Source of the DNA: Bolinopsis microptera
Lineage: Eukaryota > Ctenophora > Tentaculata > Lobata > Bolinopsidae
Direction: 5' to 3'
DNA length: 60,000 bases
NCBI RefSeq assembly: GCF_026151205.1
Contig: NC_087077.1
Coordinates: forward strand, 6,288,483 to 6,348,482
Position numbers and translations under genes: made by a program. Within the stretch, counting starts at the first letter, position 1. Every line of letters starts with the position of its first letter. A model generated the notes under the pieces. It was not told where the DNA came from. It was given only the letters and a program-made list of their open reading frames with translations, and searched no databases. Positions 1,913 through 32,100 of this stretch are shown here, piece by piece.

Positions 1913-2164
1913 ATGACAGTTATCGGGGAAACACACCCCTTTGTCTCAGTGGGAGCTCAGCCGGAACAAGCCTTCAAATCAGAGATATCACCTGATAACA
2001 CCTGGCAAACCATATCGAAAGAGAAAGCAGAAAGTGAAACTCTGCTTGGTGGTGAATATAAAGATGTGTTTGGTGTGTTACAAGGGAGGAACATGGTGTT
2101 TTGTGTAGACTGTAGTGGTAGTATGTACGAGCATCTGCCCATCATCATACACCAGTTATACGAG
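1913..2164 (+). CDS. VWA gene exon 1 (start, MIDAS strand)
   Basis: 84 codons from ATG at 1913, chosen because an in-frame TAA lies 22 bases upstream. It ends in phase 0 at TACGAG|GTGGGC. It encodes the first VWA beta strand and MIDAS loop VFCVDCSGSMYEHL. The frame happens to stay open through the 60-bp intronic repeat that follows, but joining to exon 2 makes the better VWA domain. Confidence 0.8.
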
Positions 2165-5100: not shown

Positions 5101-8100
5101 GAAGGAAAAAAAAACAGACCGAAATTTGACCTTATGTTTTTGAGGCCAAATATTGAGGTTAACCTGTAATTACATGTTAAACTTAACTTAAACTTAAAAA
5201 GGTAAACCTCCTTTCGGGAAAAGACTGGCCACAACCAGGAGCTGAAACTTTAAGGACAAAGGCAAAAATCAAAATTCGCGATATCTCATAAACACAAGCT
5301 CAGATTTGTGCAGTGGCATAACGTTGCGCCCCCACCGAAAAAGTGCCCCCTTGTTGGCGCCTTTTTGCGCCCTCCCTAAAATTTAACAAATTAGGAGATT
5401 AGGTAATTTTAGAGGATACACTGTTAAAAAGTGTGTTTCTAGAGTGTTTAGCTAGTACCTCAGTTAAGTTTTTCGAAATTGTCCCACATTTAAACGACGA
5501 TTTGGCGTCCCCTTAAGATGGCGCCCTCCTGCAGAGCGGGGTCAGCGGGGCCCTTCGTTACACCACTGGCACTAAGAATTAAATTGCGTTATGTTTGGAT
5601 TGAGCGAGTTACTTTCGCACCGGTTTAACTACGAAAATGTAATAATGCGTGTTTTCGAATACTATAATAGGCATTAGGCGGGTTTATACTTTTGCATTTC
5701 AACTGCGATAGTGAAGTCCCGGCCGAAGGCACGGGTTACACTAGTTCTTCTATAATTTTTAGGATTTAGATTTACTATTTTACCATTATTCAGTTCATGT
5801 GTAATCCCATGATTATTCTTTTACTTAACTTACCAGGAACACAGTCGTTATTTCGCAGAAATGCTGAAATATTTTCGTTTTTGTAGCGCGCGAAAACGTT
5901 TTACTGAATCATCAAACATTCTAATGCGCGCGCGCTCGAAAATATTAAGTAGAAATCAGTAAGAAATCTTTTGAGGTAGTTCCGGATGTCCTAGCTCGCG
6001 TGGCAACCATGCCCATAATAGCTTCATTTTTCTTCACCCAATAATCCCAAATCGCCTTAACATGTCAAAAACCAAGCTGAGTGTTTCACTTGTAGCTAGT
6101 GGTCTTCTTCCATGAAATTTAATTCCAGATTGAATTCGCAACCTCATTTACTAACTTTCATTGTAACATGGTTATCACTGCTATTAGCTATACTGAATCT
6201 ATTCAGGAAAAAGAAACATTGAGCTACTTTCTAACTCCCTTTCACCCACACGTCATTCTTTCAGAAAGTGCTGATTTTGGCTTGTTTTGTTTACCAAGAA
6301 TCATTTTAATCATTTTAAAATACTGTAGAATTTGACAATTCCAGTATTGTTATAATATAATTATAGTACAGTAAAACATCTATACTGGGTCTCTCGCGCG
6401 GGGGAAATAAAACTTGCAAGATATACAATACAGTATGGAGAAGGTCACCTCATCCCAATCTGTACATACGTCATACATACATGCTACACTGTTTGCTTAT
6501 CCCAATCTTTTGCCTCACAAATAAATTATCAATGTATTATAGAGAAAAAAGAAGCCCGGTATATCGAGGTACCCGGCATAGAGACTAGAGAGGTTCGACT
6601 GTACATATTTTCTCAGGTCAATTTATCGACTCAATTGAAAAGCGTTTTGTTCTGATTAAAATAAGTTATTACTAAAATTTTTATTACTAAAATGTGAACA
6701 TTAAATCATGTTTTTCTGTTAAATTGCTCAGTTTTGTGCCCAATAATCGTAACAAATTCTCACTGTTGAATATAACAGATTTTTGCAAAAATGGACATAA
6801 TCTCTGGAAAGCAAACCAACCATCAAAGGTCCTGTGCTCAATAGTCAGTTACGCCACTGAGTCACCAAGTCTCTTAACCTCTTCTCCTCATCTACAAGAG
6901 CCTTCTCATGGCTCTGTCGTTGTGTTTCCTCATCTTGTCCAGCACCTCCTGTTCTGATACCTGTTTCGTTATCTTGAACTGATACTCCAGCTTGTTGTCT
7001 AACTTCATCGCTAAACTGTTCCCACATCTCCCGCAGTTTGCTTTGTCAGCTCTGAAAATAGTATTGGTAACTTTTATCTGAGAATACCATATTAAGCATT
7101 ATAATATATATTAAGCATTATAATATAATTAAATTAGAACCCAGTTGTATTGACTATTGTGTATTGGTATTACTAATACTAGCAGGAACCCGTATAACCC
7201 TAAAATGGTGTCAAGACTCAAGAGACTAAAATAATTATACCTATTTAATTTGCGTTTTTGACACCACTTGGGGGTCCAAATTTTGGGCTCTAAAACTCCT
7301 ATTCCTTGGCCAATTTTTTATTTTTTCATGCTGATTTGGAGGCCATTAAAGCATTTGACCCAGTCAAAAAAAGTTTCAGTTGTATATCTTTTACGGTTTT
7401 TGCGGAAAGTCGCGTTAAAGTTGATGCCGTGGTGTCAGTAAAATGGTACGGATAAACACATCCATATATATCGTCTCGCTTTATATATAGTAAGATTGGT
7501 TACTAATTTAGTAACCTGTGTCTGTAAATAGAACCCAGCTGCCCGCAGATCAGGCACTCCACCTCCAGTATGTGGACAGCTGGTGACTTGTTCTTTGTAA
7601 GGCACTCTCTGTAGGGCAGTCTAAAATCGTGCTCCTTTTTCACCGGTACTACCTGTAGACATCCCAAATATATAGACATCCCAAATATATACCGGTACTA
7701 CCTGTAGACATCCCAAATATATACAGGTACTACCTGTAGACATCCCAAATATATACAGGTACTGCCTGTAGACATCCCAAATATATACAGGTACTACCTG
7801 TAGACATCCCAAATACATATAGAATTTTGATGAAGACCCCCCCGGCCCCCTTAACTGCAACAATAACCCCACCAGATTAGAAGTATCATTAACTGCAACA
7901 ATAACCCCACCAGATTAGAAGTATCATTAACTGCAACAATAACCCCACCAGATTAGAAGTATCATTAACTGCAACAATAACCCCACCAGATTAGAAGTAT
8001 CATTAACTGCAACAGCCTCCTCCTCCTCATATCTCTTCCTAAAGTTAACGGGACTCAGTCTCAAGTCCAGTTCTCCCGGATCCTGTTTGGCAGGTGCTGA

Positions 8101-11100
8101 GGTACAGAGATAGTTTCTATCGTGCCTAGGGAGAGAGTATAGCGTTACCATGGTTACATGTTACTACATAATAATGTGACATTGTACCTGTTAAATTGTC
8201 GGGTGGCTGGTTGTGACATTGTACCTGTTAAATTGTCGGGTGGCTGGTTGTGACATTGTACCTCTTAAATTGTCGGGTGGCTGGTTGTGACATTGTACCT
8301 CTTAAATTGTCGGGTGGCTGGTTGTGACATTGTACCTGTTAAATTGTCGGGTGGCTGGTTGTGACATTGTACCTGTTAAATTGTCGGGTGGCTGGTTGTG
8401 ACATTGTACCTCTTAAATTGTCGGGTGGCTAGTTGTGACATTGTACCTTTTAAATTGTCGGGTGGCTGGTTGTGACATGCTCTTCAAGTAGCTTCCTTGT
8501 GTCAGAGACTTGCCGAATATCTTAGTAGTCCCTGTCAGGAGTAAGGGACCTCTGTTTGCAGCGCGTGTCTGGTTGGAGATATCCTTACTGCTCTGCAAAT
8601 TGTGGCTTTTAAGAAATAGCAACCTAGCGAAGGTAATAAAGAAAACAATGACCCAAATAAAAGCTTATCTATAGAGGTTATGATTTAGTCATGCAGACGT
8701 ATTAAAAGAAAATTTGAAGTATCTCTAGACACTGGTGTGCATGTCAACAGCGAGATAAAACAAAGTCGACCATTGATTTACTTGGTAAACCTAGACTACA
8801 AGGTGTAGTGTGTGACTATACTACTACAGGGTGTACTGTACTGTACAACCTTTTAAACGATAATTTGAAGTAGGGTGTTAAAACTCCGATCTAAAATTGT
8901 TGTAGGGTGTGTACCTGTGTAAGTAGGGTGTGTACCTGTGTAAGAAGGTTTGCATCTGTGTAAGTAGGGTGTGTACCTGTGTGAGTAGGGTGTGTACCTG
9001 TGTGAGTAGGGTGTGTACCTGTGTGAGTAGGGTGTGTACCTGTGTGAGTAGGGTGTGTACCTGTGTAAGTAGGGTGTGTACCTGTGTAAGTAGGGTGTGT
9101 ACCTGTGTGAGTAGGGTGTGTACCTGTGTGAGTAGGGTGTGTACCTGTGTGAGTAGGGTGTGTACCTGTGTGAGTAGGGTGTGTACCTGTGTGAGTAGGG
9201 TGTGTACCTGTGTGAGTAGGGTGTGTACCTGTGTAAGTAGGGTGTGTACTGTGTAAGTAGGGTGTGTACCTGTGTAAGTAGGGTGTGTACCTGTGTAAGT
9301 AGGGTGTGTAGTGTGTAAGTAGGGTGTGTACCTGTGTAAGTAGGGTGTGTAGTGTGTAAGTAGGGTGTGTACCTGTGTAAGTAGGGTGTGTACCTGTGTA
9401 AGTAGGGTGTGTACCTGTGTAAGTAGGGTGTGTACCTGTGTAAGTAGGGTGTGTACCTGTGTAAGTAGGGTGTGTAGTGTGTAAGTAGGGTGTGTACCTG
9501 TGTAAGACTGGCAATGGTTCTCCGTATCTCATTAGACATGCTCACACACACTAACGAATCAGTCAGCTGCGAGGAATGGTACTTTATCTGGTGTTTAGGG
9601 TTGTCTTTAGTCCATATCTCGTGAGTCTGAACAAACCTAGTGGAACAATAACTAGCAATATGTTCTCTTAAGTGTTATAAGGGGCCGGGGGAGGGGGGGG
9701 GGGGTTTAGCGTTATATAATTATCAGATTCATAAGATTTGTATATTTTAAAACCCTTGCTACTACTACTACTAGGTAACCCTTGCTCGCATCTTAATATT
9801 ATGTGAATAACTTGAAAGGCGGTTATCTTATTTCCGGCGTTACTTACCCTTTCTGAGTTGCATGGTCATGTATATGAAAGCGGACGCTTAGTTTCGCCAT
9901 GAAAACTCTCACAGATGGAACTAGGAGCAAGTAGCAATTATACTTTAAACAAAACTACGAACTTGTGTATTAATCGAAATCTAAGAACTTGTGTATTAAT
10001 ATAAATCTAATATCACGACGACCTTATTATACTAGTACGAACGAAATACAGATTGCAGTCGAAATACAGATTGCAGTCAAAGTGATAGCTGCTTAGTGCT
10101 TATCGGCTCAATAATATTTAGTATTTATATAATATTTAATATTTATATAATATTTAATATTTGTATAGTATTTAATATTTATATGATATTTAATATTTAT
10201 ATAATATTTAATATTTATATAATATTTAATATTTATAAAACCACACATAATATTATGTTACTATTAAATACAATACGATCGATGTAAAATCGATTGTTTT
10301 AAACTGTTTATCAAACTGTTTATAAACTCTCTACAGTGCAAGTGGTCAGTGTTAACTGTTAATATATCTTATACGGACCATTTATAGCAAGAAATTAAAT
10401 AATGAGGCTTAACTATTCAGCATTTTAGCATAATTACAGAGAAGAGCCAATTATTTAAACAGTTTTATTTTAAACTGTCATAACTCCGGTTATCCGAGCT
10501 ACTATTATATGTACGCGGGGGAGTTGGTTAGGTCATCAGCAAAATAAACAATAACAACACTATGATTTTTAATTCAATATTATGTCATTAAAATTCTTTT
10601 TTTAAATGTTCAGTCCTAATAAGGGCATCATGTAAGGTGATATAACCACACAATACCTATAACATTGTATAGAGAAATTTCTAGACCTTTCAAAATCCCT
10701 CCCTCCCTCCCTCCCTCCCTCCCTCCCTCCCTCCCTAAATCCCTCCCTCCCTCCCTCCCTCCCTCCCTCCCTCCCTCCCTCCCTCCCTCCCTCCCTCCCT
10801 CCCTCCCTCCCTCCCTCCCTCCCTCCCTCCCTCCCTCCCTCCCTCCCTCCCTCCCTCCCTCCCTCCCTCCCTCCTTCCCGTATCGAAGATCCACCCTTGC
10901 CGTACTTATACCTGTTATGAGCAGAGGGTATAGGAGGTAGTTCTATCCCGTGAGAGTTGTAGATATTCCTAATAAGGGCATCACGTGAAGTGACGTCACC
11001 GTACATCTGACTAGGTGGGAGGTGTTGGTACTGCAGGGATATTATGCTCATTCTGTGCGGTAAATTACATGTATTTACTTATAGTTGTGGAAACTATACA

Positions 11101-14100
11101 ATTGTAATATTGTATGTTGTTAAAACAAGCAGATTAGGGATCGATTGTCAGTAATGGATCACTATGTAAAAACAATTTTTAACAGTTTAATTCTCCTGCT
11201 TATTAAATCATTTGAATCATATTCCAGAAGGACTACTGAACAACAGTTCTAAAATAGTTCAAAAATCTACAAGTCAATCAAAGATATTATAAGAAGAAGA
11301 TCAAACAATAAACATGTGTTACTGGTTGTATTTTACTGTTGTAATTTAGAAAGATGCTTTTTAAAATAGCCCCGACAAGCAAAAAGTCAAAAACGACTAG
11401 ATAACTGTTTGATTGATTGATGAAGAGGCTGTCACGTGCTATAAGATATACACAATATATAACAACATAGTGCGCTGCATGATATGTGTCTCAACAAAGG
11501 AATATTAACTGCTCCTCAAACTACATGGTTGCTTTGGGTTGAGTACTAATAGTGATCTCTGAAAGCAAATTAAACAACCTTTTCACACGTAACACAGATG
11601 CGTGCCTTCCCAGACCTGTTAGTCACGTGACCAACTTGTTATCGTGCATTATTAGATCCCTCCACACACTCGTCATGCTCAAACTCAGTCACTTTCTTGT
11701 CCAGTAAACATTGTGAGCACAGGGCGTATTACTTGTCATCCTGATAATGGTGGGTAACACACTGAGTTTGAATCTTGAAACTCTGTTTAAATATTTTATC
11801 AAATCGAGAACATTTCCTATTTAAATTTTGTATGAGCATATGAAGGAGTAAAAGCAAGCAAACAGTATCTAGTCGTACAGTACGCTGCATGTTGTAAATC
11901 TAAAATTCCCATCGAAATGATTGGGGAGCATGTTAAACCATACTAAATGGTCAGAGATAGATTGTGTTCTCAGATCAATGGACGAGGGAACAACCACAGC
12001 GAGGGAACAACCACAGCGAGGGAACAACCACAACGAGGGAACAACCACAACGAGGGAACAACCACAACGAGTGTTAGGCACGAGTGTGCCTAATAATAAG
12101 TGTGCCTAATAATAAGTGTGCCTAATAATAAGTGTGCCTAATAATAAGTGTGCCTAATAATAAGTGTGCCTAATAATAAGTGTGCCTAATAATAAGTGTG
12201 CCTAATAATAAGTGTGCCTAATAATAAGTGTGCTTAATAATAAGTGTGCCCAATAATAAGTGTGCCTAATAATAAGTGTGCCTAATAATAAGTGTGCCTA
12301 ATAATAAGTGTGCCTAATAATAAGTGTGCCTAATAATAAGTGTGCCTAATAATAAGTGTGCCTAATAATAAGTGTGCCTAATAATAAGTGTGCCTAATAA
12401 TAAGTGTGCCTGATAATAAGTGTGCCTAATAATAAGTGTGCCTAATAATAAGTGTGCCTAATAATAAGTGTGCCTAGTTATAAGTGTGCCTAATAATAAG
12501 TGTGCCTAGTAATAAGTGTGCCTAATAATAAGTGTGCCTAATAATAAGAGTGCCTTATAGTAAGAGTGCCTAATAGTAAGTGTGCCTAATAATAAGTGTG
12601 CCTAATAATAAGTGTGCCTAATAATAAGTGTGCCTAATAATAAGTGTGCCTAATAATAAGTGTGCCTAATAATAAGTGTGCCTAATAATAAGTGTGCCTA
12701 ATAATAAGTGTGCCTAATAATAAGTGTGCCTAATAATAAGTGTGCCCAATAATAAGTGTGCCCAATAATAAGTGTGCCTAATAATAAGTGTGCCTAATAA
12801 TAAGTGTGCCTAATAATAAGTGTGCCTAATAATAAGTGTGCCTAATAATAAGTGTGCCTAATAATAAGTGTGCCTAATAATAAGTGTGCCTAATAATAAA
12901 TGACTCATCTTATTTCCTAACACGCTGATGTGAGATCATCGGCTCGAACTCAAGCAATTTAGAAATCTAAATTTAGATACAAATTTATTTAATGGTCTGG
13001 AATTGCATGAATTTAATTGTTAGAATCTTTTTATACTGCTAAGCAAACACAAAATATAAGTTGTGCACTTCTTTGGATTTGTAGGTCCCTCTGCACAGAA
13101 AAGGGAAATATAACGAACTGACGGTAACTCCTCCCGTTAAACTTACTATTTACCCTATATAATTAAAAGATCGTCACATAAAAACAAGGACCTAAACTAA
13201 TAATAAATAAGCAGAATCTCTCAACCGTTACTACAATTAGAATACTCGTAATGTTTACAATTTATAGATACTGGACCACTATTGTCTCAGGTGGCTCCTT
13301 CAGACCGGTAACCTTGCCTCTAAAACTACCTGGTCCTGACGAACTGTCCGCACTACCTAAAGGAGCTGTAGTCCTGCTACATGGCGGAGTAACGGACAGG
13401 AACCTGGATACCTCCTATCTCAAACAGGAGAGCACTGATTTGAGGTGGTCCGGGGACATCCCATCTGCTTACCCTACAGGTGAGAGAACTGATTTGAGGT
13501 GGTATAGGGTATTTGCTGGTTTAGATGATAATTATTATTCCTTGTACTTTCACCCAATTAGTTACAAACCATTAGTAACCTGCATTATTAACAGTAAGAG
13601 AGCCGCCTCCCCCTGAGAAGGTAGTAAAGTTCCCGCTGACAGCTGCTGGCAGGTTGATGATGAGGAAGGTTGTGTTGGCAAGGAGCCCTCGGAGAGGCGA
13701 CTATAACACTGCAGTTATCATAGACCAGGTAACCATAGTAACAGTGTTATAATAGATCAGGTAACCATAGTAACAGTGTTATCATAGATCAGGTAACCAT
13801 AGTAACAGTGTTATCATAGATCAGGTAACCATAGTAACAGTGTTATCATAGACCAGGTAACCATGGTAACAGTGTTATCATAGATCAGGTAACCATAGTA
13901 ACATTGTTATCATAGACCAGGTAACCATAGTAACTGTATTATCATAGACCAGGTAACCATGGTAACAGTGTTATCATAGATCAGGTAACCATGGTAACAG
14001 TGTTATCATAGATCAGGTAACCATAGTAACAGTGTTATCATAGATCAGGTAACCATAGTAACAGTGTTATCATAGACCAGGTAACCATAGTAACAGTGTT

Positions 14101-17100
14101 ATCATAGATCAGGTAACCATAGTAACAGTGTTATCATAGACCAGGTAACCATGGTAACAGTGTTATCATAGATCAGGTAACCATAGTAACATTGTTATCA
14201 TAGACCAGGTAACCATAGTAACAGTGTTATCATAGATCAGGTAACCATAGTAACAGTGTTATCATAGACCAGGTAACCATAGTAACTGTATTATCATAGA
14301 CCAGGTAACCATGGTAACAGTGTTATCATAGATCAGGTAACCATGGTAACAGTGTTATCATAGACCAGGTAACCATAGTAACTGTATTATCATAGACCAT
14401 GTAACCATAGTAACAGTGTTATCATAGATCAGGTAACCATAGTAACTGTATTATCATAGACCAGGTAACCATAGTAACAGTGTTATCATAGATCAGGTAA
14501 CCATAGTAACTGTATTATCATAGATCAGGTAACCATAGTAACTGTATTATCATAGACCAGGTAACCATAGTAACAGTGTTATAATAGATCAGGTAACCAT
14601 AGTAACTGTATTATCATAGACCAGGTAACCATAGTAACAGTGTTATCATAGATCAGGTAACCATAGTAACTGTATTATCATGGACCAGGTAACCATAGTA
14701 ACAGTGTTATCATAGACCAGGTAACCATGGTAACTGTATTATCATAGATCAGGTAACCATAGTAACAGTGTTATCATAGATCAGGTAACCATAGTAACTG
14801 TATTATCATAGACCAGGTAACCATAGTAACAGTGTTATCATAGATCAGGTAACCATAGTAACTGTATTATCATAGATCAGGTAACCATAGTAACAGTGTT
14901 ATCATAGATCAGGTAACCATAGTAACTGTATTATCATAGACCAGGTAACCATAGTAACTGTATTATCATGGACCAGGTAACCATAGTAACAGTGTTATCA
15001 TAGACCAGGTAACCATGGTAACTGTATTATCATAGATCAGGTAACCATAGTAACAGTGTTATCATAGATCAGGTAACCATAGTAACTGTATTATCATAGA
15101 CCAGGTAACCATATTAACAGTGTTATCATAGATCAGGTAACCATAGTAACTGTATTATCATGGACCAGGTAACCATAGTAACAGTGTTATCATAGACCAG
15201 GTAACCATGGTAACTGTATTATCATAGATCAGGTAACCATAGTAACAGTGTTATCATAGATCAGGTAACCATAGTAACTGTATTATCATAGACCAGGTAA
15301 CCATAGTAACAGTGTTATCATAGATCAGGTAACCATAGTAACTGTATTATCATGGACCAGGTAACCATAGTAACAGTGTTATCATAGACCAGGTAACCAT
15401 GGTAACTGTATTATCATAGATCAGGTAACCATAGTAACAGTGTTATCATAGATCAGGTAACCATAGTAACTGTATTATCATAGACCAGGTAACCATAGTA
15501 ACAGTGTTATCATAGATCAGGTAACCATAGTAACTGTATTATCATAGATCAGGTAACCATAGTAACAGTGTTATCATAGATCAGGTAACCATAGTAACTG
15601 TATTATCATAGACCAGGTAACCATAGTAACAGTGTTATCATAGATCAGGTAACCATAGTAACTGTATTATCATGGACCAGGTAACCATAGTAACAGTGTT
15701 ATCATAGACCAGGTAACCATGGTAACTGTATTATCATAGATCAGGTAACCATAGTAACAGTGTTATCATAGATCAGGTAACTATAGTAACTGTATTATCA
15801 TAGACCAGGTAACCATAGTAACAGTGTTATCATAGATCATGTAACCATAGTAACTGTATTATCATAGACCAGGTAACCATAGTAACAGTATTATCATAGA
15901 TCAGGTAACCATAGTAACAGTGTTATCATAGATCAGGTAACCATAGTAACAGTATTATCATAGACCAGGTAACCATGGTAACATTGTTATAATAGATCAG
16001 GTAACCATAGTAACTGTATTATCATAGATCAGGTAACCATAGTAACAGTGTTATCATAGACCAGGTAACCATAGTAACAGTATTATCATAGACCAGGTAA
16101 CCATGGTAACAGTGTTATCATAGATCAGGTAACCATAGTAACTGTATTATCATAGATCAGGTAACCATAGTAACAGTATTATCATAGACCAGGTAACCAT
16201 GGTAACAGTGTTATCATAGACCAGGTAACCATAGTAACAATGTTATAATAGACCAGGTAACTATAGTAACAGTGTTATAATAGACCAGGTAACCATAGTA
16301 ACAGTATTATCATAGACCAGGTAACTATAGTAACAGTGTTATCATAGATCAGGTAACCATAGTAACAATGTTATAATAGATCAGGTAACCATAGTAACAG
16401 TATTATCATAGACCAGTTAACCATGGTAACAGTATTATCATAGACCAGTTAACCATAGTAACAGTGTTATCATAGATCAGGTAACCATAGTAACTGTATT
16501 ATCATAGACCAGGTAACCATGGTAACAGTATTATCATAGACCAGTTAACCATAGTAACAGTGTTATCATAGACCAGGTAACCATAGTAACAGTATTATCA
16601 TAGACCAGGTAACTATAGTAACAGTGTTATCATAGATCAGGTAACCATAGTAACAATGTTATAATAGATCAGGTAACCATAGTAACAGTATTATCATAGA
16701 CCAGTTAACCATGGTAACAGTATTATCATAGACCAGTTAACCATAGTAACAGTGTTATCATAGATCATGTAACCATAGTAACTGTATTATCATAGACCAG
16801 GTAACCATAGTAACAGTATTATCATAGATCAGGTAACCATAGTAACAGTGTTATCATAGATCAGGTAACCATAGTAACAGTATTATCATAGACCAGGTAA
16901 CCATGGTAACATTGTTATAATAGATCAGGTAACCATAGTAACTGTATTATCATAGATCAGGTAACCATAGTAACAGTGTTATCATAGACCAGGTAACCAT
17001 AGTAACAGTATTATCATAGACCAGGTAACCATGGTAACAGTGTTATCATAGATCAGGTAACCATAGTAACTGTATTATCATAGATCAGGTAACCATAGTA

Positions 17101-20100
17101 ACAGTATTATCATAGACCAGGTAACCATGGTAACAGTGTTATCATAGACCAGGTAACCATAGTAACAATGTTATAATAGACCAGGTAACTATAGTAACAG
17201 TGTTATAATAGACCAGGTAACCATAGTAACAGTATTATCATAGACCAGGTAACTATAGTAACAGTGTTATCATAGATCAGGTAACCATAGTAACAATGTT
17301 ATAATAGATCAGGTAACCATAGTAACAGTATTATCATAGACCAGTTAACCATGGTAACAGTATTATCATAGACCAGTTAACCATAGTAACAGTGTTATCA
17401 TAGATCAGGTAACCATAGTAACTGTATTATCATAGACCAGGTAACCATGGTAACAGTATTATCATAGACCAGTTAACCATAGTAACAGTGTTATCATAGA
17501 CCAGGTAACCATAGTAACAGTATTATCATAGACCAGGTAACCATAGTAACAGTATTATCATAGACCAGGTAACCATGGTAACAGTATTATCATAGACCAG
17601 GTAACCATAGTAACAGTGTTATCATAGACCAGGTAACCATAGTAACAGTATTATCATAGACCAGGTAACCATAGTAACAGTGTTATCATAGACCAGGTGC
17701 TTTCTCAATTCTACATCTTGTGTTGTTGTTGATTACCAATTATTATATTATACTATATATATAATATATATTATACCCAGTGTAGTGAACCCACTCGTCT
17801 AAGTGATGTAATCGATATTCATTGAACAAGTGTTAATTGAACAAACTTGTTATTTGAACAAACTTGTTAATTGAACAAGTGTTAATTGAACAAGTTTTAA
17901 TTGAACAAGTGTTAATTGAACAAGTGTTAATTGAACAAGTGTTAATTGAACAAGACGTGTTAATTGAACAAGTGTTAATTGAACAAGACGTGTTAATTGA
18001 ACAAGTGTTAATTGAACAAGTGTTAATTGAACAAGACGTGTTAATTGAACAAAATTGTTAATTGAACAAGTGTTAATTGAACAAACTTGTTAATTGAACA
18101 AACTTGTTAATTGAACAAACTTGTTAATTGAACAAGTGTTAATTGAACAAGACGTGTTAATTGAACAAAATTGTTAATTGAACAAGTGTTAATTGAACAA
18201 ACTTGTTAATTGAACAAACTTGTTAATTGAACAAGTGTTAATTGAACAAGTGTTTATTGAACAAGTGTTAATTGAACAAGTGTTAATTGAACAAGTGTTA
18301 ATTGAACAAGTGTTAATACAACAAGTGTTAATTGAACAAGTGTTAATTGAACAAGTGTTAATTGAACAAGTGTTAATTGAACAAGTGTTAATTGAACAAG
18401 TGTTAATTGAACAAGTGTTAATTGAACAAGTGTTACTTGAATAAACTTGTTAATTGAATAAACTTGTTAATTGAACAAGTGTTACTTGAATAAACTTGTT
18501 AATTGAATAAACTTGTTAATTGAATAAACTTGTTAATTGAATAAACTTGTTAATTGAATAAACTTGTCAATTGAACAAGTGTTAATTGAACAAGTGTTAA
18601 TTGAACAACTGTTAATTGAACAAGTGTTAATTGAACAAACTTGTTAATTGAACAAACTTGTTAATTGAATATGTGGTTATCGAACAAGTGTGTTAATTAA
18701 TTTAAATTTCAGCACAGTCCCACGTGTTTTGAAGTTGAGTTTAAGAAGAACCAGCAGAAGGAGAGATGTGAGCTTTGTCACATATTCGCACTACAAGATG
18801 CTCTCATGCACCCAGTCTTGAAAGGTAAGTCCTCCCTGCACTACAAGATGCTCTCATGCACCCAGTATTGAAAGGTAAGTCCTCCCCGCACTACAAGATG
18901 CTCTCATGCACCCAGTCTTGAAAGGTAAGTCCTCCCCGCACTACAAGATGCTCTCATGCACCCAGTCTTTAAAGGTAAGTCCTCCCCGCACTACAAGATG
19001 CTCTCATGCACCCAGCCTTGAAAGGTAAGTCCTCCCCTCGCTACAAGATGCTCTCATGCACCCAGTCTTGAAAGGTAAGTCCTCCCATCACTACAAGATA
19101 CTCTCATGCACCCAGTCTTGAAAGGTAAGTCCTCCCCTCACTACAAGATGCTCTCATGCACCCAGCCTTGAAAGGTAAGTCCTTCCCTCACTACAAGATG
19201 CTCTCATGCACCCAGCCTTGAAAGGTAAGTCCTCCCCTCACTACAAGATGCTCTCATGCACCCAGCCTTGAAAGGTAAGTCCTCCCCTCACTACAAGATG
19301 CTCTCATGCACCCAGACTTGAAAGGTAAGTCCTCCCCTCACTACAAGATGCTCTCATGCACCCAGTCTTGAAAGGTAAGTCCTCCCCTCACTACAAGATG
19401 CTCTCATGCACCCAGTCTTGAAAGGTAAGTCCTCCCCGCACTACAAGATGCTCTCATGCACCCAGCCTTGAAAGGTAAGTCCTCCCCTCGCTACAAGATG
19501 CTCTCATGCACCCAGTCTTGAAAGGTAAGTCCTCCCATCACTACAAGATACTCTCATGCACCCAGTCTTGAAAGGTAAGTCCTCCCCTCACTACAAGATG
19601 CTCTCATGCACCCAGCCTTGAAAGGTAAGTCCTTCCCTCACTACAAGATGCTCTCATGCACCCAGCCTTGAAAGGTAAGTCCTCCCCTCACTACAAGATG
19701 CTCTCATGCACCCAGCCTTGAAAGGTAAGTCCTCCCCTCTTAGGTCCCGTTCTTAGGTTTTACTGTACCAAATATTTATGTAATTAAATATTCTGTGAAT
19801 TTTGCAGTGTACCAGATATTAAGATTAATTGTAGTTATTTATTTAAACAATTTGTTCTATTTATCAAGTAAGGAAAAACTAGGTTGAAGCATTAAATCAG
19901 ATTCAAATATACAGAATACAAAGTAACAAAAACTAGAACCCCACCTGAGGGCGGGTCTCAAACAATGTTCAGCTTATAACCATGGTAAGAGTGTTCAGCT
20001 TGTATCTCCAGTCACTATAAAACGAACTGTCTCCTCTGTAACCATGGTAACAGTTTTCTACCAAGTTTGGTCCTCCTCCTCGGAGAGACCATGACTAAAC

Positions 20101-23100
20101 CCTGCACGTGATCTGACGTTAGAGAGACGGGAGGAGGGGTAACCAATCAGAAGTCCCTCTTCACTGCTCTCTTCTATTCCCTCTACACTGTCCTCCTGAC
20201 AAATGCAGTGTTACTAACATAACAGCATTTATACCAATAATTATTCATGTAAATTATTTACATACAATTACCGACTTATTTATCGAGACACCTGCTATAT
20301 CGGGTAATATATCATAGGACTCAGAGATTGTTTCGAAATACGGGTATATTCGTAATTAGATGACTGTAAGTAATTACTAATGGAACTGTAACCAGGACAA
20401 GAAATAGTGGAGGCACTAACAATTTTAACCAAAGCAGTAGGCACTAACAATGGTTTTTCTACTATACCTCGTCCACAATAGAAGCGTTGATAAGAACAGT
20501 GGACAGGGCCAGGGTGAGTAGCAGGAGTCTGAACATGTTGTAGGGTCAGTAGAGTAGAATGTCTGGAAGCTGGGTGAATGGTAGTGCTCACCAACTCCAC
20601 CAATGTCCTTTTATATCTACTCAATCGGACTATTTTTAATAAATTTGTCATTTTCCAGGAGATATTAGTTTCCATGCCGTTTAATATTGGACAAATTAAT
20701 CCAAGGACCGTAATGAGAACGAGGCAGAGGATTGGAGGACTATACCACGTGTTCAGTATGATCCCCTCTCCCACCCTGGACAGGGGGTAAAGTGAAGTTT
20801 GGGAGGACCCTCACGTCCCCCTCCCACCCTCGACACCTACCTGACACTTTTAGGGGGCTACCTGACACTTTTAGGGGGCTACCACTGAAAATATTACCCC
20901 ACGCACTAGACTGTTAGATTTTACAGGTCAGGTAGAAATTTAATTTTAGTAGATTGGAATATTGGTTTGCCGCTTTTAAAACATTTTATAATGTAGGGTG
21001 TTGCTCTAGGCAGTTCGCTCTGGCGAGTGTTGTAACTTTATTACCACGGTGGAGACAACTGATTTGTCTTACTTTCATAAAACTTGCAGTATGAGAGTTA
21101 TATGTATTATAATCTAAACGAGTCTATAAAAAATAAAAGCATGCAATTTAGGCTGTGTGTAATTCATTACTTACCGGAATACTTAGGGAAAGTGGGAGTC
21201 TGAATAGAAACCATCATTTATACTGCTAGTTACTTCCTTACATCAATAACTAACAACATTACATTGCTGCTAGTTACTTCCTTACATCAATAACTAACAA
21301 CATTACATTGCTGCTAGTTACTTCCTTACATCAATAACTAACAACATTACATTGCTGCTAGTTACTTCCTTACATCAATAACTAACAACATTACATTACT
21401 GCTAGTTACTTCCTTACATCAATAACTAACAACATTACATTACTGCTAGTTACTTCCTTACATCAATAACTAACAACATTACATTGCTGCTAGTTACTTC
21501 CTTACATCAATAACTAACAACATTACATTACTGCTAGTTACTTCCTTACATCAATAACTAACAACATTACATTGCTGCTAGTTACTTCCTTACATCAATA
21601 ACTAACAACATTACATTGCTGCTAGTTACTTCCTTACATCAATAACTAACAACATTACATTGCTGCTAGTTACTTCCTTACATCAATAACTAACAACATT
21701 ACATTGCTGCAAGTTACTTCCTTACATCAATAACTAACAACATTACATTGCTGCTAGTTACTTCCTTACATCAATAACTAACAACATTACATTGCTGCTA
21801 GTTACTTCCTTACATCAATAACTAACAACATTACATTGCTGCTAGTTACTTCCTTACATCAATAACTAACAACATTACATTGCTGCAAGTTACTTCCTTA
21901 CATCAATAACTAACAACATTACATTGCTGCTAGTTACTTCCTTACATCAATAACTAACAACATTACATTACTGCTAGTTACTTCCTTACATCAATAACTA
22001 ACAACATTACATTGCTGCTAGTTACTTCCTTACATCAATAACTAACAACATTACATTGCTGCTAGTTACTTCCTTACATCAATAACTAACAACATTACAT
22101 TACTGCTAGTTACTTCCTTACATCAATAACTAACAACATTACATTGCTGCTAGTTACTTCCTTACATCAATAACTAACAACATTACATTACTGCTAGTTA
22201 CTTCCTTACATCAATAACTAACAACATTACATTGCTGCTAGTTACTTCCTTACATCAATAACTAACAACATTACATTGCTGCAAGTTACTTCCTTACATC
22301 AATAACTAACAACATTACATTGCTGCTAGTTACTTCCTTACATCAATAACTAACAACATTACATTGCTGCTAGTTACTTCCTTACATCAATAACTAACAA
22401 CATTACATTACTGCTAGTTACTTCCTTACATCAATAACTAACAACATTACATTGCTGCTAGTTACTTCCTTACATCAATAACTAACAACATTACATTACT
22501 GCTAGTTACTTCCTTACATCAATAACTAACAACATTACATTGCTGCTAGTTACTTCCTTACATCAATAACTAACAACATTACATTGCTGCAAGTTACTTC
22601 CTTACATCAATAACTAACAACATTACATTGCTGCTAGTTACTTCCTTACATCAATAACTAACAACATTACATTACTGCTAGTTACTTCCTTACATCAATA
22701 ACTAACAACATTACATTGCTGCTAGTTACTTCCTTACATCAATAACTAACAACATTACATTACTGCTAGTTACTTCCTTACATCAATAACTAACAACATT
22801 ACATTGCTGCTAGTTACTTCCTTACATCAATAACTAACAACATTACATTGCTGCTAGTTACTTCCTTACATCAATAACTAACAACATTACATTGCTGCTA
22901 GTTACTTCCTTACATCAACAACTAACAACATTACATTACTGCTAGTTACTTCCTTACATCAATAACTAACAACATTACATTGCTGCAAGTTACTTCCTTA
23001 CATCAATAACTAACAACATTACATTGCTGCTAGTTACTTCCTTACATTGCTGCTAGTTACTTCCTTACATCAATAACTAACAACATTACATTACTGCTAG

Positions 23101-26100
23101 TTACTTCCTTACATCAATAACTAACAACATTACATTGCTGCTAGTTACTTCCTTACATCAATAACTAACAACATTACATTACTGCTAGTTACTTCCTTAC
23201 ATCAATAACTAACAACATTACATTGCTGCTAGTTACTTCCTTACATCAATAACTAACAACATTACATTGCTGCTAGTTACTTCCTTACATCAATAACTAA
23301 CAACATTACATTGCTGCAAGTTACTTCCTTACATCAATAACTAACAACATTACATTGCTGCTAGTTACTTCCTTACATCAATAACTAACAACATTACATT
23401 GCTGCTAGTTACTTCCTTACATCAATAACTAACAACATTACATTGCTGCTAGTTACTTCCTTACATCAATAACTAACAACATTACATTGCTGCAAGTTAC
23501 TTCCTTACATCAATAACTAACAACATTACATTGCTGCTAGTTACTTCCTTACATCAATAACTAACAACATTACATTACTGCTAGTTACTTCCTTACATCA
23601 ATAACTAACAACATTACATTGCTGCTAGTTACTTCCTTACATCAATAACTAACAACATTACATTGCTGCTAGTTACTTCCTTACATCAATAACTAACAAC
23701 ATTACATTACTGCTAGTTACTTCCTTACATCAATAACTAACAACATTACATTGCTGCTAGTTACTTCCTTACATCAATAACTAACAACATTACATTACTG
23801 CTAGTTACTTCCTTACATCAATAACTAACAACATTACATTGCTGCTAGTTACTTCCTTACATCAATAACTAACAACATTACATTGCTGCAAGTTACTTCC
23901 TTACATCAATAACTAACAACATTACATTGCTGCTAGTTACTTCCTTACATCAATAACTAACAACATTACATTGCTGCTAGTTACTTCCTTACATCAATAA
24001 CTAACAACATTACATTACTGCTAGTTACTTCCTTACATCAATAACTAACAACATTACATTGCTGCTAGTTACTTCCTTACATCAATAACTAACAACATTA
24101 CATTACTGCTAGTTACTTCCTTACATCAATAACTAACAACATTACATTGCTGCTAGTTACTTCCTTACATCAATAACTAACAACATTTCATTGCTGCTAG
24201 TTACTTCCTTACATCAATAACTAACAACATTACATTGCTGCTAGTTACTTCCTTACATCAACAACTAACAACATTACATTACTGCTAGTTACTTCCTTAC
24301 ATCAATAACTAACAACATTACATTGCTGCAAGTTACTTCCTTACATCAATAACTAACAACATTACATTGCTGCTAGTTACTTCCTTACATTGCTGCTAGT
24401 TACTTCCTTACATCAATAACTAACAACATTACATTACTGCTAGTTACTTCCTTACGTCAATGACTAACAACATTTCTTCTAGTAACGATATTATTGGAGT
24501 ATATAAATATATATGTAATGTATGTTAATAATCTTAATGTTTATTGAGATTTTTAATATAGATGTAAAGTGAGTAGAAATACGTAAGATTCCTGGCGATA
24601 CAGTTCGTATTTTACAGAGCACAAAATTACAAATTATTATTAGAATTTCAGCCACTAAGATTTTTTATGGATTTTCAAAAAGTTGTCTCATAAATTAAAA
24701 AATGATTTCCAGCATCCGTAAAGTACGTAATGGTGATAATATGGCTGATCATCAGATCATGTGACTTCTATAACACAGTCTATAACACAGTCTATAACAC
24801 AGTCTATAACACAGTCTATAACACAGTCTATAACACAGTCTATAACACAGTATATAACACAGTCTATAACACAGTCTATAGCACAGTCTATATCACAGTC
24901 TATATCATAGTCTATAACACAGTCTATAACACAGTCTATAACACAGTCTATAGCACAGTCTATAACACAGTCTATAACACAGTCTATAACACAGTATATA
25001 ACACAGTCTATAACACAGTATATAACACAGTCTATAACACAGTCTATAGCACAGTCTATATCACAGTCTATAACACAGTCTATAACACAGTCTATAACAC
25101 AGTATATATAACACAGTCTATAACACAGTCTATAACACAGTCTATAACACAGTCTATAACACAGTCTATAACACAGTCTATAACACAGTCTATAGCACAG
25201 TCTATAACACAGTCTATAAGTTCACAGATTTCAAACAAAGCTGAGAATGTTTTTAATAATTTATTTACCTACCCAATTCTGGAGGATATGAAATAATAAT
25301 AATAAAAGGAGGAGTCCTGATCCGGGGGGCAATAAAAGGAGGAGCCCTGATCCTGGGGGGGGGGGGGGGGCAATAAAAGGAGGAGCCCTGATCCTGGGGG
25401 GGGGGGGGGGGCAATAAAAGGAGGAGTAATGATCCTGGGGGGGGGGGGCAATAAAAGGAGGAGCCATAATCCTGCCCCTGGGGGGGGGGGGTAATAAAAG
25501 GAGGAGTAATGATCCTGGGGGGGGGGGGGAAATAAAAGGAGGAGCCCTGATCCTTGGTTGGTGGGGGGCAATAAAAGGAGGAGCCCTGATCCTGGGGGGG
25601 GGGGGCAATAAAAGGAGGAGCCCTGATCCTTGGTTGGTGGGGGGCAATAAAAGGAGGAGCCCTGATCCTGGGGGGGGGGGGGGGCAATAAAAGGAGGAGC
25701 CCTGATCCTGGGGGGGGGGGGCAATAAAAGGAGGAGTAATGATCCTGGGGGGGGGGGGGGGCAATAAAAGGAGGAGCCATAATCCTGGGGGGGGGGGGTA
25801 ATAAAAGGAGGAGTAATGATCCTGGGGGGGGGGGGGCAATAAAAGGAGGAGCCCTGATCCTTGGTTGGGGGGGGGGGGGGCAATAAGGAGGAGTCATGAT
25901 CCTCCTCGCGTCCTAAAGTCGCGTTCTCTTGAATCTAATACGGTAAAACGCAGCTCACAAGAGTTCCATCAGATTCCACTTGCTCCTTCACAAATAAACT
26001 CCCTCTATCTGGACCGTATGAACCTGGTAATGTAGTATATCTGCTTGTGATCACGTGCTAGCTCCTGTTAAGAAAGGAGGACCGTATGAACCTGGTAATG

Positions 26101-29100
26101 TAGTATATCTGCAGGTGATCACGTGCTAGCCCCTGTTAAGAAAGGAGGACCGTATGAACCTGGTAACGTAGTGCGAGGAGAGGACTCCCTCCGAGGGACC
26201 AACTACCACGGCACTGCTGGTTAGTCTCTTTTTCATGATTCCTCTCAACTTTATTGTTAGTTTTTACAATGAAATAGAAAGAATTTTTTCAAAACCGAGT
26301 ATTGACTTTTAAGGTTGGAGCATATGGGCACCTGGATAAACATTTTTCTAGAAAGTTTTCTCCATCAGTTCAGTCTGACAACCTTTTGGGGTGTTTCTTG
26401 GGACTATAGACATTCCTGAAGAGAAACCTTGGCTACGATTTATTACAGCTTTGAGCTTATCCACTTCCCTAACATAGGCTAAGCATTACATGGATGTAGT
26501 TGCAACGTTGTTTGTCTGCGCTTGTGATGCTTTATATCTGACCTGATACTGCCCTGAATACTGCTCCTGAATACTGCATGAATAACTGCTGAAGCTGAAT
26601 ACCTGTCTGAATACCTGCCCAGGAATACCTGTCGTGTGTGTGTGTGTATAATAAAAGTTGTTACTTACATGATCTAATGGTGGTATGCAGTGGCAACTAC
26701 AGCATAGTGCAGAGCGCTCAGCTAATGGATTCTAACCTTTTACACAGATGGTTACGAACTTCGAATAGTCCTTCTACGTGGTTGGGACTTCTTAGAATCC
26801 ATATTTTTAGATAGTTTTAAACATTAGCAACATTAATTCCTTATCGGAGTTATGGGCGTGATGGTAATAAAAGGGTAGTAATGATACCTGGGCCCGTTGA
26901 TTTGAGGCAAATGGGGGCAATAAAACTCGCACGCGAGCCTGCTCGCTTAGTTGTGTGGGCAATCAAAGAGGCGATCCTGAATCTGAGGTACGGGGCGCGG
27001 CAATAAAGAAAGGTGAGGAGCCCTAGATCCTTGGTTGGTGGGGGGCATAAAAGGAAAGGGGCCTGATCCGGGGGGGGGGGGGGGAATAAAAAGGGGGAGC
27101 CCCGATCCTGGGGGGGGGCAAAAAAAAAAGGGGAGTAATGTCCTGGGGGGGGGGGGAATAAAAAGGGGGAGCCTAATCGGGGGGGGGGGTAAAAAAAGGG
27201 GAGTAATACCCGGGGGGGGGGCTAAAAGGAGGAGCCCCGGTCCTTGGTTGGGGGGGGGGGGGGGCAATAAGGGGGAGTCATGATCTCCCGCGTCCTAAAG
27301 TCGCGTTCTCTTGAATTAATACGGTAAAAAGAGCTCACAAGAGTTTCCATCAGATTCCCCTTGTCCTTCACAAATAAACTCCCTCATCGGACCGTAGAAC
27401 CTTTGGGAAGTGTAATTGTTGTGATCACGTGCTAGCTCCTGTTAAGAAAGGAGGACCGTATGAACCTGGTAATGTAGTATATCTGCAGGTGATCACGTGC
27501 TAGCCCCTGTTAAGAAAGGAGGACCGTATGAACCTGGTAACGTAGTGCGAGGAGAGGACTCCCTCCGAGGGACCAACTACCACGGCACTGCTGGTTAGTC
27601 TCTTTTTCATGATTCCTCTCAACTTTATTGTTAGTTTTTACAATGAAATAGAAAGAATTTTTTCCAAAACCGAGTATTGACTTTTAAGGTTGGAGCGTAT
27701 GGGCACCTGGATAAACATTTTTCTAGAAAGTTTTCTCCATCAGTTCAGTCTGACAACCTTTTGGGGTGTTTCTTGGGACTATAGACATTCCTGAAGAGAA
27801 ACCTTGGCTACGAATTTATTCCCAGCTTTTGAGCTTATCCCATTCTTGCCCTAACTATAGGCTATAGCTTTTATCATGGCATGTGTTGCAGCGTTGTTTC
27901 GTCTGCGCTTGCTGACTGCTTTATATACCTGCTCCTGAATACCTGCTCCTGAATACCTGCTCCTGAATACCTGCTCCTGAATAACTGCTCCTGAAGCTGA
28001 ATACCTGCTCCTGAATACCTGCTCCTGAATACCTGGTCGTGTGTGTGTGTGTGTATAATAACAGTTGTTACTTACAGGTGATCTAATGGTGGTACTGTAC
28101 AGTGGAACTACAGTCATGTGCAGAGCCGGCTCAGCTATCTGGATTCCTAAACCTGTTTACAACAGAATGGTTACTGAACTTCGAATAGTCCCTTCTACGT
28201 GAGTTGAGACTTCTTTAGAATCCTATATTTTTAGATAGTTTTAAACTAATTACAACACTCTATTCCATTTATCGAGTATTATGTATCGTGATGGAAATAT
28301 TTTAAGGGGGTAGTTTTATAACATGAAGGCCTCGTTTTGATTTGTATATAAAAAGCACTAATAGAGGATTTGGGTTTAACCCATAAAACTCCGCACGGTC
28401 GTTATCGCTGCTCGATTAGTTGCTATGCTAATTCGCAAAGTTATTTTTGTGCGATATTCTGGAATCTGGATGGAGTTACTGTTGGTGCGCGGCGCTAAAC
28501 TAGTAAAGCAAATTTCCAATTTGTACCATGCACGGGTCCCCCTAGCCTCCCTCCCCTAGCCTCCCTCCCTTAAATTATACCTATAATATTTATCTTGATA
28601 ACTAGTTTATTTCTCCCCAGCAAGTCGTCAGTGGAAGCTGTAGAAGCTCTGAAGGTCTCGGAGCACAACCCCACTTCTCCCCATGATCTACAGGACTACA
28701 TCCTCAGCAAGAATAACGGACCCAGGGAGACAGGTAGTGTTACCGAACTAACTTATAGTGTATATAATATATAATACTATATTAGTACAGGGTGGGCCAA
28801 AAGTCACTGGACATACGTTGGCCTTAATAGCTGTCACTGAGTGACCAATTGAAATAATTCTTTCTGGTACGACTTACTACCACCACTGGTTCGAGGAATT
28901 TGTCAAATCGAAAAATATTCGAGTTCATTTTTTTCAAATGAAGGTTCATTTTTGCATTTATTTGATAGTTTGGATAGTCGGATTGCGCTAAATTTTATTG
29001 AATTGTGTTTGGCCATTCGAATTACGTTTGTCCTGAAAAAATTAGAGCTGTAGCTTCTCAGATGGCCGAGATACGAAGCATAACGAGTTTATTCATTACG

Positions 29101-32100
29101 TGTGATCAGGTGATTGGGTTGATGCTAGATCCGCATTATGGGAATCGTGCAGAGAGCCCAATTACGGTGTCGTAATTGGGTAATCATTGATTACCCAATC
29201 AATTTTGATAATGAGATAAACAAATTGCTTGATAACTTCGTCATTTTAAATCCGTTTCGCACCATCTTTTCATATTATATTCCGGATTAAATGATCTATT
29301 GCAATATGTTACAACGGAGTCTCTAACATGTTCACAAACACCAGTATAAGCAATTCAATGTTGATTGGGTGTGGCCCCCAAAAATCGAATTTTCAAATTT
29401 TGGTGACGGAATCCTCGAACAAGTAGGTACAGTATTCCATCTGCAAACAACAACTTGTAATACTTTGTTATTGGTTCTCAAGATATAATACTTAACATTA
29501 TACAGCTCAATTTAGATAATAAAATGTCTCACTGTATTACAGATGTTTGTGGAGATGTCCCCAAGACAGTTGTTTGTGAAGTAGTGGACGTAACACCAGT
29601 AGTTCTGGAGGACTACCCTTGCGACACTACCGACCAGGACACTATACTAACCACTCTTAGTCAGCTGGAGATCAGGGAGGAAGAGCAGGGTGAGTGCCAT
29701 TCTGATTTATAATTTTACTTAAATCATTTCCACATTTTGACACAAGGGACACTTTTAATTTTGTAAAAATTCAGGAGAAATTCCAGGCTACATATCCGGA
29801 ATGTTGGCGGACGAGGGACACTTTGACGAGATTCTAGGGGTTCCCGACCATCCTCGATTCAAGGAGATGGAGGAGGAGGAGGAGGAGGAAGCAGCAAGCA
29901 AACCTGGTACAGCTGAAATGTTACATTTTTGAATGATTGACGGCTCGATGATTACTGATTTCTATAACAGCCCTATAATATAACTATTGCAGTGTGGAGG
30001 TATACTGGTAAAGCAGCTGAGGGAAATAAGAGTCCCACCTCTAAACCTATGAGACCAATGTCCGCCTCACTTCCTCGTGGTGAGGATCAACCATACTTAC
30101 TCTTTAGGAATATTGTTTAAACTATTCTTTAACGGTTGATCGGTAAAAATAAGGTTCCTGATCAGATCATACCATTACAGTTGTATAACTAATTGTCCAG
30201 GTAAAAGCACGTACAGGGAAGAGTACCACCTTCCAAGTAAGATAGACATGTCCTTCCCTGGAGTGGGGGCTCGTCCCGCCTCCTCCGCTGTCAGACCTCA
30301 CACAGCCCACTCTTCTACTCCTTCAGGTACCAGCTTTGTGGTTAACCAGTACACTTTTATTTGCATAGTTTATATATTATTACCTTATAATATGAGCCCT
30401 GCTAACAGTTGATGTGACCTATTAATATTATTACCTCAGTGAGTCAGCTGAAGGAGAGAGAGAGAGCTAAAAGGGACGCTCAGGCCCACAAGAAACAAGA
30501 TAGATTACTCCTAGCTAAGACACGCGTCACTCGTCAGCTCAAGTAAGTCGCACAGTTTTTCTAACGCAGTAGTAAGTTCATCAACAGAATTTAGTTCTTG
30601 TAAACGTCTTGAATTTCATGAATTTTCAATGATTGAGAAATAAGGTATAGTCGTGTTGAGAAATAAGGTATAGTCGTGTTGTGTCCGTATATAATGACTA
30701 CCTTAGTCGGTAATATTATGGGGGGTCTAATTTTGGTGTTCCTTTTGTTATATCATTCATAATATGCTTAACGTTTCTTTCATTCACGTTCAGAAGTATG
30801 CTTACGTAATGTTTGCTGAATTGAAGCTAGTTCTGGTTCAAAAAGTCCGATTTGTCTACTATCCCCCCATGCTTTCAATTTTAAGGGTTAACTAGGAAAA
30901 ATTTCAATCGGATATCTAATGAAAAAATATTAAATTTGTTGTGAAAGCGGCAATGTGGTGGGTCCGGGACTCTACGGCGTAAGATTTTTTTCACGAAAGG
31001 AAAGTCGCAGTTAAAATCGTGGGGGTCGAATTTGGTTCTTTTCGGACCAAAGAACCATATTTATAACAGTCCATATTTTTAACACCCATAATCCCCCCCC
31101 CCCCCCCCCCCCATAATATTACCGACTAAGGTAGTCCCTTTCAGAGAGCGGGACGCTATGAAGGAGCAGAGAGGGTTACAGGTTTCTAAAGATACTAAGT
31201 TCAGGGAGGGACCGACCGGGCAAGCTTTGTCTCGTTTTGCTGATAAAAAGAAGCTTAAAAATACTGGCTCCCACCAACAGGTAAGGAGATTGTTCGCACC
31301 AACAGGTAAGGAGATTGTTCGCACCAACAGGTAATGAAATTGTTCGCACCAACAGGTAAGGAGGGTAAGGAGATTGTTCGCACCAACAGGTAATGAAATT
31401 GTTCGCACCAACAGGTAAGGAGATTGTTCGCACCAACAGGTAAAGAGATTGTTTGCACCAACAGGTAAATAAATTGTTTGCAGCCACAGGTAAAGAAATT
31501 GTTTGCAGCAACAGGTAAAGAAATTGTTCGCACCAACAGGTAATGAAATTGTTCGCAATATTATTTTTGGATAATGTAAATCAGCGACTTATTGGTTTGG
31601 AAATTAAGTATGAAGTCCGGCTCAGGGAGCGCTGTCTGTTAACGACAGTCCTATCCCGGCCCGAACCACAGTGACGGTCCGGGACGACAAGACAGGACGC
31701 TTTTCCGGTTATCGGCTCTCAACTAAACTCTCTTCTGGGAAATTATCTCACAACATTCCGCCCACTTTCCAGGTTCCTTCTCTCACGTGTAGTGTACCCC
31801 CCCCCCCCCCCACCTACGTGTAGTGTACCCCCACGTGTAGTGTACCCCCCCACCACGTGTAGTGTACCCCCCACCCACGTGTAGTGTACCCCCCCCCCCC
31901 CCCCCACCCCCCCCCCCCCACCCACGTGTAGTGTACCCCCCCCCCCCCCACGTGTACCTTACAAGACATTTTTGTGGCGGACCAATTTGCGACGACCGAA
32001 ATTTTGGCGGTCCGAAAATATGGCGAAATTGAACAAAAACCGTCACATTTCGGACGTCACAGAAAATAAGGGAATTTTTCATCATTTTGTTTTCTGACAC

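Follow-up and report, generated by a model that had tools for sequence, protein, structure and literature searches.

Genes and predicted exons at the locus

The stretch of DNA analysed, hereafter the window, comprises 60,000 nucleotides (nt) from the ctenophore Bolinopsis microptera (C6:6288483-6348482) and carries two predicted genes on opposite strands in which tandem arrays of the minisatellite type were found to span exon-intron boundaries. Positions given without a contig are those of the window. The genome of this species is reported as 265 Mb in 13 chromosomes, the largest being 26.2 Mb (PMC11797021, Table 1); the sequence searched here amounted to 264.65 Mb and includes contigs C1-C13. 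The two genes, and the exons of most concern, are as follows.

1913..31280, plus strand: VWA3-like gene, 15 modelled exons giving one open frame of 714 amino acids (aa)
13595..13728, plus strand: exon 5 of the VWA3-like gene, ending in ATAGACCAG with GTAACC following; the DUF4537 match starts here
18713..18824, plus strand: exon 6 of the VWA3-like gene, within the joined open frame and the DUF4537 match
7593..11052, minus strand: nested gene, five predicted exons (11052-7593) within intron 3 of the VWA3-like gene

The 714-aa product was found to match the Pfam families VWA_3 (E = 1.5e-7) and DUF4537 (E = 1.6e-12, residues 301-425), with the latter match crossing the predicted junctions 13728/18713 and 18824/27489. 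A search of the PDB using part of this protein as query gave no match. The five minus-strand exons join into an open frame of 208 aa, the last exon being ended at an arbitrary point, and a Pfam search with this product returned no match. Exon models of the plus-strand gene are thus supported by homology, and those of the minus-strand gene by open, phase-consistent frames. Nested genes have been reported in another ctenophore, with a figure of 2357 nested intronic genes appearing in the account of the Hormiphora genome (PMC8527503).

Arrays that include exon edges and splice sites

Arrays of the window were identified with Tandem Repeats Finder (TRF), with the repeats at 13479 and at the duplicate 27489, for which TRF gave no row, being read by eye. 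At eight boundaries of the two genes, comprising six donors and two acceptors, the terminal unit of an array was found to be the edge of the exon itself.

13714..17698, plus strand: donor-spanning array, 32-bp unit in about 124 copies (TRF period 64/96), the last 15 nt of exon 13595-13728 and 17 intron nt
18789..19739, plus strand: donor-spanning array, 50-bp unit in 19 copies, the last 36 nt of exon 18713-18824 and 14 intron nt
31272..31557, plus strand: donor-spanning array, 25-bp unit, the last 9 nt of exon 31145-31280 and 16 intron nt, with one partial unit internally
26011..26172, plus strand: acceptor-spanning array, 68-bp unit in 2.4 copies, at exon 26115-26219
27422..27560, plus strand: duplicate copy of that acceptor-spanning array, preceding exon copy 27489-27593, read by eye
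8902..9506, minus strand: donor-spanning array, 21-bp unit in 29 copies, the last 9 nt of exon 9636-9498 and 12 intron nt
8175..8478, minus strand: donor-spanning array, 37-bp unit in 8.2 copies, the last 32 nt of exon 8592-8447 and 5 intron nt
7851..8014, minus strand: donor-spanning array, 38-bp unit in 4.3 copies, the last 28 nt of exon 8125-7987 and 10 intron nt
7652..7819, minus strand: acceptor-spanning array, 32-bp unit, at the exon starting at 7652; end set by eye, TRF stopping at 7673
13428..13503, plus strand: repeat of an exon segment just past donor 13479
9..137, plus strand: array before a CCDC34-like exon, 46-bp unit in 2.7 copies, with the acceptor in the last unit or at its end and two candidate AGs

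The donors lying inside a terminal unit are therefore those at 13728, 18824 and 31280 (plus strand) and at 9498, 8447 and 7987 (minus strand), and the acceptors are those at 7652 (minus strand) and at 26115 with its duplicate 27489 (plus strand). Units of the donor arrays combine 9 to 36 exon nt with 5 to 17 intron nt. The GT was kept in 116 of the 124 copies of the 32-bp array and in all 19 copies of the 50-bp array. The 334-nt intron of the minus-strand gene (7986-7653) consists almost entirely of two arrays, one spanning its donor and one spanning its acceptor. In six arrays of the window, variation per position did not clearly indicate functional conservation of the donor copies, as most positions are invariant.

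An earlier note on this DNA, made from the sequence alone, had listed ten boundaries as lying in arrays, and eight of these were upheld. One of the eight had been misplaced at 8008; its 38-bp donor-spanning array is present, with the donor at 7987. The donor at 13479 is not multiplied, with only a 22-nt exon segment recurring beyond it and the donor itself occurring once. The tenth boundary, the acceptor at 137, may fall at either of two AGs of the last unit.

The acceptor array at 26115 has its duplicate at 27489, and exon copy 27489-27593 is the one used in the 714-aa frame. A block of approximately 1.4 kb, comprising exon 7 together with the beginning of exon 8, is duplicated in tandem here (25980-28200); in the upstream copy, exon 8 no longer has its acceptor AG.

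Spanning arrays in the window compared to chance

Expectation was obtained from a model that duplicates a randomly chosen segment, one unit long, in tandem and places its copies into the intron. For the two genes of the window, seven spanning arrays were counted in 27 rows (period at least 20) where 1.5 were expected, giving P = 4.8e-4, a value uncorrected for the window having been picked by its reader for its boundary arrays. The 27 rows represent 22 distinct arrays, five being counted under both genes, which makes the test conservative. Seventeen plus-strand exons were used; they include the two exon 7 copies as well as a presumed exon close to 33.2 kb, which lies outside the 15-exon model and makes donor 31280 count as internal. 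The array at 7652 escapes the spanning rule because its TRF end falls about 20 nt short.

Genome-wide counts of donor and acceptor words

Splice-site words were counted across the genome as pairs, a pair being two copies of a word 20-50 bp apart, with the same word reversed as control. Donor word AGGTRAGT formed 3308 pairs compared to 273 for its reverse (12x), with single counts of 19232 and 15615, an excess of 9.8x per single word. AGGTTWGT formed 4843 pairs compared to 404 (12x) at near-equal single counts of 28277 and 28058. For the acceptor word TTTYCAGR, the corresponding values were 1496 and 468 pairs (3.2x) and 81741 and 36164 singles, or 1.4x per single word. Arrays covering an exon end and its donor recur in the genome, and donor words show a strong excess in tandem; acceptors are supported to a lesser degree.

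Among the matches listed, AGGTTWGT occurred at 18 places in 12.76 Mb (two of them belonging to one array), ten of which had at least two pair matches; its reverse occurred at 38 places in 80.6 Mb, six of which had at least two (P = 8e-6 for ten in 12.76 Mb against six in 80.6 Mb). Donor and reversed words differed in multi-copy places (10 against 6) relative to two-copy places (8 against 32; P = 0.004), these place counts being small and made by eye. As the excess lies more in multi-copy than in two-copy places, it points to growth or retention of arrays that contain a donor. Donor words can also mask acceptor arrays: at C1:2507400-2508400 (L054), the array spanning a copine-like acceptor lies on the minus strand, and its sequence resembles a strong donor motif when the plus strand is read.

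Exons preceding donor-word arrays

Upstream sides were taken from the 18 AGGTTWGT places, eight AGGTRAGT arrays (C1) and 19 of 20 control places, and were scored for an exon by codon usage plus acceptor, with training on dynein and myosin exons and a threshold of 14. Scores of at least 14 were obtained for 8/18, 5/8 and 2/19, respectively, so that 13 of the 26 donor-word places, compared to two of the 19 controls, scored as being preceded by a coding exon (Fisher P = 0.009).

Ten peptides were searched against Pfam, nine from donor exons and one from the copine-like acceptor exon on the opposite strand; the over-threshold exons L053, L075, L084 and L088 lay outside this set. Three exceeded the curated cut-off, namely SHMT (E = 1.1e-24), Sushi (2.2e-6) and a C2H2 finger (2e-6). 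Two had E below 0.001 but fell under that cut-off (Copine, 1.5e-4; dynein AAA_9, 5.6e-4), three were weak (Sushi, 0.0025 and 0.023; EF-hand, 0.0095) and two gave no match. The clearest candidate for a donor-word array starting at a coding exon is that of SHMT, in which the predicted exon ends in DYDKLEDQ and is followed by the array and then by the next exon, VSYFRPRMLIAG. When these exons are joined at the first donor copy, 102 residues align without a gap to a solved SHMT (1cj0).

All eight multi-copy TTTYCAGR places among the matches listed were also scored. Two reached 14, both through translations of repeats (a DHGNEAR repeat beside the array in one, a position inside a repeat in the other), and none of the eight precedes a convincing exon.

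At C1:884400-885400 (L051), the dynein-like exon before a donor array itself carries a tandemly duplicated longer segment of exon.

Predicted choice among donor copies

Splicing at the nearest good donor copy, in place of the first, was predicted to shift the frame or add a stop in 13 of the 16 donor arrays tested, two dynein arrays standing outside this set. In most arrays tested, the exon-proximal copy alone is therefore predicted to keep the protein in frame. Three arrays stay open with the nearest good copy (L048, L082 and L084); in L048 that copy lies three units further on, and in L082 the repeated part of the exon amounts to only 3 nt. Since the alternative would disrupt the product in 13 of 16 cases, the exon-proximal donor is most likely the one in use. 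The suggestion in the earlier note that the arrays could supply many equivalent donors per exon is weak on these grounds.

Origin and maintenance of the arrays

The arrays of the window are probably minisatellites of the type termed "mirages" in amphioxus, which would enlarge existing introns and remain silent through the choice of the exon-proximal donor. In such a process, a segment holding an exon edge and its splice site would be duplicated in tandem and the copies would accumulate on the intron side, so that the exon would become the first unit of a donor array or the last unit of an acceptor array. Tandem duplication and slippage within introns already in existence would provide the origin. 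Persistence would follow from exon definition, by which the exon-proximal donor would be chosen and the mRNA left unchanged. Copied acceptors, lying upstream of the real one, would be expected to intercept splicing and be selected against, which would explain the preference for donors over acceptors. This filter alone does not explain why donors should be preferred to arbitrary intron words; for that, a bias in the growth or retention of donor-containing arrays would be needed in addition.

A number of results weigh against this interpretation. The splice sites are predictions from the DNA alone. In a sample of 29 stretches, chosen with no reference to arrays and modelled by spliced alignment (17 from 30 of 73 myosin-head matches, and 12 dynein stretches in which exon matches cluster; 214 boundaries in all), three of 17 arrays were spanning where 2.1 were expected (P = 0.36). 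These are two donor arrays in dyneins (65 bp in 12 copies and 55 bp in two; L058 and L065) and one acceptor array in a myosin on C11 (72 bp in 3.1 copies); two further arrays that reach a boundary by one exon nt were excluded. Boundaries in these genes were thus not hit by arrays more often than intron positions, and the earlier statement that boundary arrays are far beyond expectation stands for the window as picked and, across the genome, for donor words, but does not extend to every gene. The random-level result is not easily reconciled with a tenfold preference for donors, and the word counts may overstate the donor effect. Pair counts weigh long arrays heavily, and pairs alone, counted for a further control word and for its reverse, numbered 1217 and 958, respectively, so that the donor excess may be nearer 3-5x than 12x. 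The effect was weak at loci chosen blind to the motif: AGGT was present in 16 of the 67 array units, shuffling giving an expectation of 12.5, and in 10 of 23 units with at least three copies (6.0 expected), with the control word GTGA deviating equally (21/67, 12.5 expected). Half of the 26 donor-word places lack a recognisable coding exon, and the exon at L053 (score 14.1) overlaps what appears to be the antisense strand of another gene. Moreover, 22% of 505 AGGT in eight 10-kb loci scored at least 14, probably owing to real exons and read-through in those loci; it was due to this high background that the control places were used for comparison instead. Lastly, the contrast between donors and acceptors holds for words and is not established for exon anchoring.

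That the arrays are themselves new introns, gained by tandem duplication of exon sequence containing AGGT, a route to which the earlier note had likened them, appears very improbable. AG/GT is present in many units, and the 334-nt intron of the minus-strand gene is almost nothing but two arrays, as such a gain might produce. Its two ends, however, belong to two different arrays, and the acceptors of the introns after 13728 and 18824 (plus strand), after 9498 and 8447 (minus strand) and in SHMT lie outside the donor array; in none of the five introns checked were both ends found in copies of one unit. Two dynein cases allow the intron to be examined in genes without the array. The intron of the L058 array, at codon 194 phase 0 (194.0), has its counterpart at the same position in paralogue L066, where it is 158 bp long and free of arrays, while the intron of the L065 array (193.2, codon 193 phase 2) is not common to the paralogues. 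An intron absent before the duplication was thus not found, and intron gain was rejected as the principal explanation on account of the shared position 194.0 together with far intron ends outside donor arrays. Three Sushi exons on C1 have units of 34, 54 and 79 bp, the exon parts of which are alike as the exons are paralogous and the intron parts of which differ, a pattern that would be expected of separate later events, as it suggests. These comparisons favour the addition of arrays to pre-existing introns, with parallel change being possible.

Coincidence, by which minisatellites arise anywhere in short introns and some happen to cover a boundary, is unlikely to account for the whole. It agrees with the dynein and myosin counts and with the selection of an array-rich window, in which arrays cover 30.1% compared to 0.4-29.4% in eight other 10-kb loci, but not with a 12x excess of donor-word pairs at equal single counts, nor with the density of multi-pair places or the frequency of exon-start scores relative to controls. 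Both mutational bias and selection are possible sources of the excess of donor arrays over arbitrary words. A bias linked to the donor itself (transcription, R-loops or U1 binding), raising tandem duplication or array growth at the border, would fit the donor-word preference and the differing units of the Sushi paralogues, which would represent separate events at homologous donors. It is nevertheless rather doubtful, as dynein and myosin genes show no excess and the excess concerns growth and not clearly first duplications, given the two-copy places (8 against 32). Less credible again is selection in favour of 5' splice-site arrays, the copies of which might, for example, offer U1 additional places to land and thereby reinforce the choice of donor or keep premature polyadenylation down within long introns. 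The stronger word bias for donors than for the acceptor word, an excess lying in multi-copy and not in two-copy places and the intact GT of the 124- and 19-copy arrays are in its favour; the GT is weak evidence, however, when most array positions are invariant and its first base varies in eight copies of the 124-copy array, and half of the donor-word places have no coding exon.

Relation to known boundary minisatellites

Amphioxus mirages are described as minisatellite-like tandem duplications of exon-intron boundaries in the Adh, globin, troponin C and PGBD5 genes. Their units measure 10-160 bp, boundaries of both the 5' and the 3' type are affected, and mRNA splicing is reportedly undisturbed; a model of intron gain was derived from them (PMC3087553, PMC3902484). 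Reverse transcription PCR is said to show the exon-proximal donor in use (PMC3087553). The Bolinopsis arrays are alike in that the unit crosses the boundary (eight boundaries of the window, L058, L065, the C11 myosin and SHMT) and in affecting both boundary types, acceptors being represented by 7652, 26115/27489, the C11 myosin and the copine-like L054. In the Bolinopsis copies the GT is kept, and the predicted frame favours the exon-proximal copy as above. They differ in belonging to a ctenophore, in reaching 124 copies, in having been counted genome-wide as words, in their donor bias and in being known from sequence alone.

Gain of introns through tandem duplication, or through the expansion of repeats, is described for potato RdRp (PMC4974935) and Cryptococcus (PMC2395259), where tandem copies containing AG/GT likewise lie beside introns. 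There the duplication makes new introns, whereas here existing introns seem to be enlarged, with one end outside the donor array in the five checked. Ordinary intronic minisatellites share the unit lengths, head-to-tail copies and high identity between copies, but in the arrays described here the terminal unit is part of the coding sequence and carries the splice site predicted to be used.

A literature search, conducted mostly without the term "mirage", recovered mirages in amphioxus only. No boundary arrays of ctenophores were met in the literature searched, including passages of PMC11797021 and PMC8527503, which is no proof of their absence from print. The kind of array is therefore already known from amphioxus; what is new, as far as the literature was searched, is their presence in this phylum, their copy numbers and their bias towards donors. 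Boundary minisatellites, described in the literature searched from a handful of amphioxus genes, can now be counted in a ctenophore. Two questions become testable with them: how one donor is selected by the spliceosome where as many as 124 near-identical ones are present, and whether tandem duplication is promoted by splice donors or only tolerated at them. They also advise caution, since the presence of tandem AG/GT arrays at introns is insufficient on its own to show intron gain. We tentatively raise the wider proposal that arrays grow specifically on 5' splice sites through a process linked to donor recognition or transcription, with donor sequences seeding or sustaining minisatellites far more than acceptors or other intron words do. 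Stacks of decoy donors would then follow hundreds of exons, and the arrays would have arisen separately in ctenophores and lancelets.

Additional observations

Tandem arrays of EF-hand open frames, mostly spaced by approximately 940-1030 bp, were met at C13:11082760-11094295, C5:17013039-17026356, C1:21999721-22006881 and C3:3415799-3427318. A frame of the C13 array (L108) is a photoprotein, with Mnemiopsin 1 as its best solved match (421 bits, E = 1.4e-125) followed by Berovin, both of which are ctenophore proteins. Dynein heavy chain open frames of 3357, 3703 and 2539 aa (C3:8954112, C1:6100405 and C4:10070770, respectively) exist beside intron-rich paralogues. Elsewhere in the window, degenerate telomere-like AACCCT repeats occur at 33574-33659, which is internal to the chromosome, and an imperfect two-kilobase TCC/CCTCCTCAG array at 50266-52398 overlaps an open frame of 440 aa.

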